Source of the DNA: Deltaproteobacteria bacterium
Lineage (GTDB): Bacteria > Desulfobacterota > Dissulfuribacteria > Dissulfuribacterales > DYLC01
Assembly: GCA_028695735.1 (NCBI GenBank)
Contig: JAQVIJ010000003.1
Coordinates: 186,001 to 250,000, forward strand
Reading direction: 5' to 3'
DNA length: 64,000 nt
The notes beneath the pieces are model-generated. The model did no database searches. It was not told the origin of the DNA and saw only the letters and a list, made by a program, of their open reading frames with translations. Both the position numbers and the translations under genes were made by a program. Positions 29,327 through 30,662 of the stretch are shown here, piece after piece (within the stretch, counting starts at the first letter, position 1; the number at the start of each line of letters is the position of its first letter).

Positions 29327-29446
29327 GGGGCGAGGGCAGCCGGCATTTGTTCCATGCCCCACATAACCGCCCTCCATGGCGGAGATGTGGGGCCGGCGCC
29401 ATCGTGGCGCCTATTCCACAAACACCGGCTACTCATCGCCCCTCCC
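29327..29446 (+). repeat. Multi-hairpin repeat, copy 1
   Basis: About 120 bp made of nested inverted repeats. The outer arms GCCGGCATTTGT and ACAAACACCGGC pair; inside is a stem GCCCCACAT/ATGTGGGGC topped by CCGCC/GGCGG around the loop CTCCAT; then GGCGCCATCGTGGCGCC. Copy 2 at 29816-29936 is nearly identical and in the same direction, copy 3 at 30208-30322 is inverted and diverged in its stems. The open frames across these copies (RHLFHAPHNRPPW-like) are by-products of the repeat, not proteins. Confidence 0.8.
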
Positions 29447-29457
29447 CACAAAAGAAT

Positions 29458-29485
29458 GTAGGGGCGACCGGCCGGTCGCCCCTAC
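29458..29485. repeat. Perfect 28-bp palindrome of the GTAGGGGCG type
   Basis: Two 14-bp arms (GTAGGGGCGACCGG and its complement) with no loop. Related palindromes with the same ends lie at 29643-29671 and, inside a MITE-like copy, at 51182-51212. Confidence 0.75.
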
Positions 29486-29536
29486 TTCGGCGGCTATCGC
29501 CGTCCTGTAATGACGATGAGTCTGTATCGCCCTTCT

Positions 29537-29583
29537 TGGCAGTTATGCGCCGCATGGAACAAATGCTTCACCGCTGCCGCCTC
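29537..29583 (-). repeat. Partial multi-hairpin repeat (end fragment)
   Basis: The 40-odd bases GGCAGTTATGCGCCGCATGG ... CACCGCTGCCGCC match the right end of copy 3 (30279-30320) almost exactly, without the rest of the element. Confidence 0.7.
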
Positions 29584-29642
29584 AAAGAGATTTAATTAAA
29601 AAAGTTGTTCAAGAATGTGTCTGTCCTTTTTCTGTTGTTGTT

Positions 29643-29671
29643 GTAGGGGCAGGCCCCTGTGCCTGCCCCTT
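29643..29671. repeat. GTAGGGGCAGGC-type palindrome
   Basis: Arms GTAGGGGCAGGC and GCCTGCCCCTTAT around CCCTGT; same ends as the palindromes at 29458 and 51182. A further partial copy (GTGCCTGCCC) follows at about 29681. Sequence up to 29815 is low-complexity pyrimidine-rich (CTTTTTCTTTT runs) with no gene seen. Confidence 0.6.
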
Positions 29672-29815
29672 ATGCTTCTGTGCCTGCCCTTATTGCTGTG
29701 CCTGTCCAGATTTAATCCTTTTTCTTTCTTTTTCTTTTGCTTTTTCTTTTGTTGTTTTTGTCTCATCGTGCTTGTTGTTTTTTCAGTTTTAATACATGGT
29801 GATAATTCGATTTCT

Positions 29816-29936
29816 GGGCGAGGGCAGCCGGTATTTGTTCCATGCCCCACATAACCGCCCTCCATGGCGGAGATGTGGGGCCGGCGCCCTCGTGGCGCCT
29901 ATTCCACAAACACCGGCTACTCATCGCCCTCCCCAC
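29816..29936 (+). repeat. Multi-hairpin repeat, copy 2
   Basis: Same orientation as copy 1 and almost identical, with C-to-T (GCCGGTATTTGT) and A-to-C (GGCGCCCTCGTGGCGCC) changes that keep or improve pairing with the opposite arm. Nothing recognisable as a gene lies between 29937 and 30207. Confidence 0.8.
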
Positions 29937-30207
29937 CTCCACATTCTACATCAGAAGCCGCTTAAAAAAGACATAGACCCATTGAACTTTTTTAATACCC
30001 TTCCTGAAACTCCACGCCCAACCGTAAACGATGCTTCAAAGCATCACATCTCCTTTGGACTTTGGTTAACAGCGGGTAAAGACCAATTCCACGTTTTTTA
30101 TTGGCAGAAGTGCCGCTTATTATAAAAAACAGGTCAATCCGAGTGGAATTACATGAGGAATGGATAGGGCACCCGTTATGGATATGGAGTTTTGCAGGGG
30201 CGAAAAG

Positions 30208-30322
30208 GGCGGCAGTGGTGGAGTGTTTGTGGAATAGGCGCCACGAGGGCGCCGGCGGCGCATACTGCCATGGAGGGCAGTTATGCGCCGCATGGAACAA
30301 ATGCTTCACCGCTGCCGCCCCA
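30208..30322 (-). repeat. Multi-hairpin repeat, copy 3 (inverted, diverged stems)
   Basis: On the minus strand it reads GGCAGCGGTGAAGCATTTGT, CCATGCGGCGCATAACTGCC, CTCCATGGCAGTATGCGCCGC, then GGCGCCCTCGTGGCGCCTAT and TCCACAAACACTCCACCACTGCC. The loop and junction segments (ATTTGTTCCATG, CCTCCATGG, CCTATTCCACAAACAC) equal those of copies 1 and 2, while both arms of the stems differ and still pair. Confidence 0.8.
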
Positions 30323-30408
30323 CCTAAAAAATTTAATTTAAAATGGGTCTGTCCTTTTTCCCTTTTCCATGCATTGATTTTCTCCATCTTTCACTCTAAA
30401 TTGGCCTT

Positions 30409-30546
30409 ATGAGTCGCGCCAAATACGATGCATTTTACAAGAAATTTTTCTCGCGGCCTCAAATGGTGGAAGGCCTGCTCAAAAACTTCGTGAAAGGAGA
30501 CTGGTTGAATCACCTGCTCAACCCATTCCAGAATTTCAAGATTTAA
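30409..30546 (+). pseudogene. N-terminal fragment of an Rpn/YhgA-type recombination-promoting nuclease gene
   Basis: 45 codons reading MSRAKYDAFYKKFFSRPQMV, then EGLLKNFVKGDW, resemble the start of the Rpn (transposase_31) PD-(D/E)XK family, in which a 'YKxxFSxPxMVexLL' opening is usual. It ends prematurely (NPFQNFKI-stop), losing the catalytic core. Proteins of this family are usually about 300 residues. Confidence 0.6.
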
Positions 30547-30560
30547 AGGAGGTAACCCCC

Positions 30561-30662
30561 ATGCTTGCTGAGACAGTGACTCACTGGACTCGCGAATGGA
30601 AAAAACAAGGCCTTACGGAAGGCCGCAAGGAAGGCCGCGATGATTCGCGAAGCCTCTATTGA
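30561..30662 (+). pseudogene. C-terminal fragment of the same Rpn-type gene
   Basis: 33 codons reading MLAETVTHWTREWKKQGLTE, then GRKEGRDDSR, resemble the charged C-terminal tail of Rpn proteins (MLAE..xWxxEWxxQG..xGR). An AAGGAGGT sequence precedes the ATG, so it may still be translated as a peptide. The fragment starts 14 bp after the N-terminal fragment, which implies a large internal deletion. Its stop overlaps the extended upstream reading frame of waaA. Confidence 0.55.

Follow-up and report, generated by a model that had tools for sequence, protein, structure and literature searches.

The palindromic repeats in a 64,000-nucleotide stretch of deltaproteobacterial DNA (contig JAQVIJ010000003.1, positions 186,001–250,000; hereafter the window) form the two ends, A and B, of units that are probably non-autonomous, gene-less, MITE-like elements, moved as DNA and with ends that self-fold into a T-shape. 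The units were assigned to the MITE type because of their size, copy number and absence of genes, and because their relatives in other genomes carry terminal repeats and target duplications. They are short (about 420–560 bp), have no transposase gene, and are bounded by terminal inverted repeats, which are exact in two related genomes (G008 and G015) and consist of the diverged outer arms of A and B in the window's own genome (G000).

Repeat units within the window

A preliminary description of the window had listed three copies of the repeat, one of them inverted, together with an end fragment, and all were recovered where they had been placed. A complete A-B unit spans positions 29816–30322. 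Its first end is a subfamily A copy (copy 2; 29816–29936, plus strand, 126.4 bits) and its second, inverted end is a subfamily B copy (copy 3; about 30206–30322, minus strand, 127.0 bits), with a non-coding interior between them (29937–30205, plus strand). A derivative unit occupies positions 29327–29584. It opens with another A end, a three-way-junction palindrome (copy 1; 29327–29446, plus strand, 126.2 bits, E 4.8e-27) to which copy 2 is 97% identical, and runs through a linker of about 88 bp (29447–29536, plus strand), holding a GTAG-tagged palindrome, into fragment b (29537–29584, minus strand), where B is reduced to its outer arm and stops at the first hairpin tip. This fragment matches positions 30276–30322 at 98%. 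Outside the complete unit lies an outer flank module (30323–30360, plus strand; family D4, 81%) that is also present at 29585–29632 and at most B ends genome-wide.

GTAG-tagged palindromes such as those at 29458–29485 and 29641–29700 (GTAGGGGCGACC.., GTAGGGGCAGGCC..) were observed inside or beside many A/B islands. Beyond the B end, positions 30408–30660 hold two pieces, both in frame, that resemble the beginning and end of a nuclease gene, which we take to be of the Rpn/YhgA-like kind; a profile search gave no family match for them, and a second copy of the pieces (86–89% identical at the protein level) follows the b fragment at locus L080. Positions 29327–30322 had no match among 72,556 plasmid and 50,697 phage records, nor did the loop-and-junction pattern match viral contigs, and a phage or plasmid origin was accordingly rejected for the collections searched.

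Copy number, arrangement and divergence

Copies 1 and 2 of the window represent one subfamily (A) and copy 3 another (B) within G000, whose assembly comprises 2.22 Mb in 9 contigs and is 97% complete. At least 94 near-full copies, defined as covering at least 100 of 121 positions, are present: 45 A and 45 B in the stretches that were fetched, and four matches to the covariance model R1 outside of them (C8:30910, C2:466829, C6:38685 and C6:38263). The fetched stretches contained 118 matches in total, 28 of them partial. This genome total is a lower bound, with 89 of 89 scored candidates matching.

Adjacent A and B ends formed 38 convergent pairs (A>...<B), with about 190–320 bp separating the ends, and the resulting units reside in intergenic islands. 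Pairing was not strict, as shown by a B<A> arrangement at L067 and by runs of like ends (e.g. A>A>B<). The A-linker-b form was found at four places (L077, twice in L076, and L084) and in at least three flank contexts, while a shorter, fused b>a< hairpin occurred at three (L079, L072 and L067); half-copies had their breakpoints close to hairpin tips. At L071 (3070–3978), half A copies were arrayed in tandem with a 196-bp period, adjoining a full A-B unit. The 33 islands flanked on both sides by a long ORF showed no preferred arrangement relative to those genes (11 +I+, 9 -I+, 7 +I- and 6 -I-), and 31 of the 33 had no ORF of 150 aa or longer inside, the other two holding one each (165 aa and 221 aa). 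The flanks of the units were mosaics of other repeats, and a fixed-offset target duplication, sought in G000 for A, for B and for whole units, was not found.

Conservation was concentrated in the ends. Over 38 units, mean pairwise identity was 92.8% for the A end and 91.7% for the B end, as compared to 79.4% (with 21% gaps) for the interior and 44% and 61% for the two outer flanks. Paired sites within the ends differed from the consensus in 2.3% (A) and 1.7% (B) of cases and unpaired sites in 7.9% and 7.3%, respectively.

Structure of the terminal module

Each full copy forms a three-way junction, consisting of a long outer stem (P1) and two hairpins that together give the T-shape. The layout of the module, about 120 bp in the A and B ends and beginning GGGCGA or GGGGCGG, is P1, a hairpin P2 topped by P2a, the loop of which has six bases (NTCCAT), and a hairpin P3 whose loop is frequently CTCGT, all joined by constant junctions. 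Folding z-scores as DNA were -7.2, -7.9 and -7.6 for window copies 1–3 and ranged from -7.2 to -9.2 for five sequences folded as RNA; none of 200 shuffles of each sequence, in either set, was equally stable. Fold energies were about -67 to -83 kcal/mol for either strand as RNA. In P2, an uncompensated T.C mismatch is present in roughly half of all B copies.

Conservation of the fold

That the folded form is conserved, as the preliminary description had held, is supported by covariation controls and by arm swapping; the inference rests on stems whose two arms differ together from one lineage to another, clearly in excess of the controls. Copy 3 displays the pattern within the window, its loops and junctions remaining constant while the inner and outer stems differ on both arms. 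The single differences between copies 1 and 2, said at first to preserve pairing, do not: there are two substitutions (C/T at 29344 versus 29832, and A/C in the second hairpin loop), and on sequence and folds one turns a mismatch into a pair while the other loses a closing pair.

Covariation was scored on 32 sequences, comprising 27 of the 90 own copies (A and B) and five from G008/G015, among which 16 of 35 pairs showed changes on both sides. In this set 97.8% of cells paired, as compared to 85.7% after redealing the 3' letters. The covariation score was 0.343 against 0.133 in shuffles, with none of 500 shuffles reaching it, and sliding the partners by 1–3 columns gave at most 0.099; these controls ignore relatedness, and the structure was taken from the same alignment. 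Independent events are few, because three lineages underlie all 35 pairs. In an arm-swap test on consensus arms taken from the loci of four lineages, including the single copy of G006 with its P3 arm moved by one base, 106 of 112 cells were paired with their own arms and 73–76 after swapping.

Compensation inside one G000 subfamily is weak. Cells changed on one side numbered 72 in A and 57 in B, versus 5 and 2 that were doubly changed and paired (129 versus 7 for both together). A larger sample was available from G008/G015, where 44 copies were drawn from 90 terminal-repeat pairs (160–180 bp, no N, clear orientation; 4 were unorientable). Here, 64 double-change cells stayed Watson-Crick and 6 did not, corresponding to 14 paired versus 6 unpaired double-change alleles (p 0.0009 against a chance of one third), and one-sided cells made up 237 of 307 changes. 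Additional copies lacking compensation had been named as grounds for abandoning the idea of a conserved fold; the copies gave a mixed answer, mostly one-sided within A or B and compensatory across lineages. What did not stand was covariation within one genome as sole proof, as the step from A to B is essentially one concerted divergence and changes within the subfamilies are mostly one-sided. Judged from the sequence comparisons, the proof of fold conservation comes from other genomes and not from G000 alone.

Relatives and mode of transposition

Searching 395 genomes of the phylum with R1 under strict filters matched four (G000, G006, G008 and G358), and a search of 41 genomes of the same order matched five (G000, G006, G008, G015 and, weakly, G035 with E 0.003). 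G006 has one divergent single copy, whereas 150 scored candidates in each of G008 and G015 yielded at least 148 and 50 matches, respectively. In the latter two genomes the T-module sits inside a 174-bp MITE ending in CCTGAATCCGTGAG. Exact duplications of 5 bp flanked 26 of 56 of these MITEs and 6-bp duplications another 8 (34 of 56 combined, counted on those of the 90 pairs that were <200 bp with full flanks), as compared to shuffled means of 0.7 and 0.2. Duplications of the target are a mark of DDE transposition. A Syntrophus MAG contig contained one true copy, again with the CCTGAATCCGTGAG terminus; three of 19 named pattern matches (two Acidobacteria and one Thermoplasmata) were set aside as chance, showing no family fold.

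The CCTGAATCCGTGAG terminus was present in 18 of 297 phylum genomes. In G186 it is found at the ends of a 1,674-bp element that contains an ORF for a PF13701 transposase, and we take the terminus and this transposase to belong to the IS1380 family. In three further genomes (G291, G263 and G303; L199–L203, L208) it bounds MITEs of 162–165 bp with other interiors, some of them long hairpins, so that a single transposon terminus is shared by several fold-back bodies unrelated to one another. No autonomous copy was found between CCTGAATCCGTGAG termini in G008/G015: PF13701 occurs in G008 as fragments only, and the ORFs enclosed by a 1.75-kb CCTGAATCCGTGAG pair on its contig 9 read like ordinary genes. 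PF01609 (DDE_Tnp_1) was found in none of the four genomes G000, G008, G015 and G006. G000 has no PF13701 transposase and, beyond one site with one mismatch, no CCTGAATCCGTGAG terminus, so that transposase cannot explain the G000 fold. Mobilization of the G000 units as DNA would instead have depended on a transposase acting in trans, either lost from the assembly or unrecognized in it.

A third kind of end was found in G358, a single-contig genome of the same phylum, where a T-shaped, 137-bp MITE is present in at least 40 copies (e.g. L222–L261). Its ends are of the GTAACTGTTCA type, unlike CCTGAATCCGTGAG, and 12 of 40 copies had 8-bp duplications with one mismatch allowed, versus 0.34 in shuffles. 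The element has a two-hairpin layout and loop sequences in common with A/B. R1 detected it at E 1e-4 in a genome (395 genomes searched; best 42 bits), and the reverse search with a model of its own (R2, from 20 of the 40 copies) gave a best E of 0.0044, with the hairpin region of that match unaligned. By sequence, the G358 element may be either homologous to A/B or convergent with it.

The preliminary description had also proposed transposition by a REP-type Y1 enzyme and recommended a search for one. G000 does have two RAYT-like ORFs, and A/B, too, are inverted palindromic pairs within intergenic mosaics; however, no A/B copy occurred in the 6–8 kb fetched around each ORF. At L061 (460–3231; C5 of G000) a RAYT-like domain (NF047646, 95.9 bits with a cut-off of 80) forms an in-frame part of a long ORF, the rest of which reads like a DNA methyltransferase. 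The second ORF scored 58.8 bits, under the cut-off, and is surrounded by GTAG palindromes. REPINs have a GTAG or CGTC tag on a short palindrome with a RAYT gene beside the repeat; A and B are about 120 bp without a GTAG tag, and no such gene adjoins them in the fetched stretches. The GTAG palindromes themselves are probably the true REP substrates of a RAYT-like ORF, because they lie in or near A/B islands and around one of the two. With both ORFs away from A/B and target duplications left by relatives of the module, movement by a REP-type enzyme fails as an explanation, and we consider it very unlikely that A/B are REP/BIME-type elements moved by a RAYT.

Possible reasons for the fold

For the MITE-like units preferred here, the T-shape may have been kept because the palindrome serves as folded DNA, either as a cruciform or as a hairpin on the replicating single strand; alternatively, folded transcripts entering from both sides may be better tolerated. 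Both readings predict equal constraint on the two strands, as seen. The B fold is dispensable for the spread of the A-linker-b form, which has no B junction yet occurs at four places; if the fold takes a direct part in transposition, it does not do so generally.

The fold could also act as RNA, made by neighbouring or own transcription, in the capacity of an RNase III target, an mRNA stabilizer, a two-way terminator or a small RNA, roles of the kind described for NEMIS/Correia and ERIC elements; this reading is possible but not the probable one. Folds from either strand are highly stable, and the stems of A/B are far better conserved than the unpaired sites. Folding of MITE transcripts and their cleavage by RNase III have been published, according to the available portions of PMC10969869 and PMC2229807. 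However, islands have no fixed orientation to the adjoining genes, a mechanical ORF overlaps 11 of the 24 copies scored in G008/G015, and neither the window search nor a permissive local scan matched Rfam 15, on which basis a known RNA family was rejected. One-sided G.U alleles numbered 34 for the plus and 19 for the minus strand in G008/G015, versus 8 and 14 in A and B; as the bias differs between the families, neither strand is favoured, a result that fits DNA structure, RNA from both directions, or self-correction of the palindrome. Of the earlier suggestion that the element matters as an RNA, a role of this kind may stand, with no Rfam match and no strand picked by the G.U bias.

A narrower proposal, that minus-strand transcripts serve as decoys for CsrA/RsmA, derives from minus-strand loops that read AUGGA and junctions that hold GGA, the CsrA/RsmA motif. 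GGA recurs in B, G008 and G006 copies, both in the loops and at the junctions, but the C pairs that would provide it vary in A (at one J1 site in at least 40%), the P3 loop is often CTCGT, and unpaired sites vary more than stems. We regard this proposal as highly improbable.

Self-correction requires no function of the fold at all: the stems would only look compensated, their arms having been repaired by template switching during replication, and the fold would be a mutational by-product. The long, near-perfect outer stems are in keeping with it, as are the half-copies that break near hairpin tips, the three fused b>a< hairpins and the matched variants in the A outer stem (TGAG with CTCA in 5, other matched in 31 and mixed in 6 of the 42 scorable among 45 copies; Fisher p 0.0005). 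Such repair should erase mismatches and bulges, yet A, B and G008 all retain asymmetric junctions and many one-sided mismatches remain; among singly occurring changes in G008/G015, 60 one-sided alleles compare with 7 paired doubles. The account could hold, though we doubt it. Overall, reasons related to DNA or mobility may rank first, with RNA and self-correction close behind.

The T-module stands behind at least two end types, A/B and the CCTGAATCCGTGAG IS1380-type with its 5-bp duplications, and with G358 an 8-bp type is added. We put forward tentatively, and as a rather unlikely extension, that the T-junction is a conserved module in transposons with at least three end types, selected on its fold for a job of its own. 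If so, the module might act, for example, as a DNA structure extruded at the replication fork, or as an RNA that insulates in both directions and so lets insertions be tolerated. If selection on the fold is independent of any particular transposase, these genomes offer hundreds of naturally occurring variants whose stems are compensated (at least 94, 148, 50 and 40 copies in G000, G008, G015 and G358, respectively). Such a dataset could separate DNA structure, RNA structure and palindrome self-correction in bacterial palindromic repeats, and bears on why these repeats persist, a question standing since the discovery of REP and ERIC.

Comparison with known systems

REP/BIME/REPIN elements likewise consist of inverted palindromic pairs in mosaics, and GTAG palindromes do lie beside A copy 1; they differ from A/B in size, in the GTAG tag that A/B lack, in the adjoining RAYT, and in the target duplications seen among A/B relatives. 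With IS1380-type insertion sequences the likeness resides in the relatives, as the G008/G015 MITEs end in CCTGAATCCGTGAG like the PF13701 element of G186, whereas both terminus and transposase are absent from G000. The terminal repeats of adeno-associated virus are T-shaped. As in A/B, its T-shaped palindromes stand at both inverted ends, a likeness of outline alone. CIR elements of Caulobacter and Brucella, compared by their description in the accessible part of PMC2229807, share with A/B two hairpin arms and a phylogenetically conserved structure.

A described three-way-junction MITE, compensated MITE stems or Syntrophales MITEs were not found in the literature searched, which lay largely outside subscription journals. 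Relative to that searchable literature, three features appear new: a T-junction compensated across lineages, the pair of diverged T-junctions that bounds one unit, and the return of the junction behind other termini. The closest counterparts are MITEs of the NEMIS/Correia, ERIC/RU-1, RUP and YPAL kind; folded MITE transcripts are described in the available portions of PMC10969869, PMC2229807 and PMC3733652. As far as those portions go, A/B resemble them in being short, gene-less, mostly intergenic and high in copy number with a stable fold, and A/B relatives resemble them in having terminal repeats and target duplications. Unlike the MITEs described there, A/B have as their body a T-shaped three-way junction rather than a single long stem, two diverged T-shapes close one G000 unit, and the same shape recurs behind different termini.
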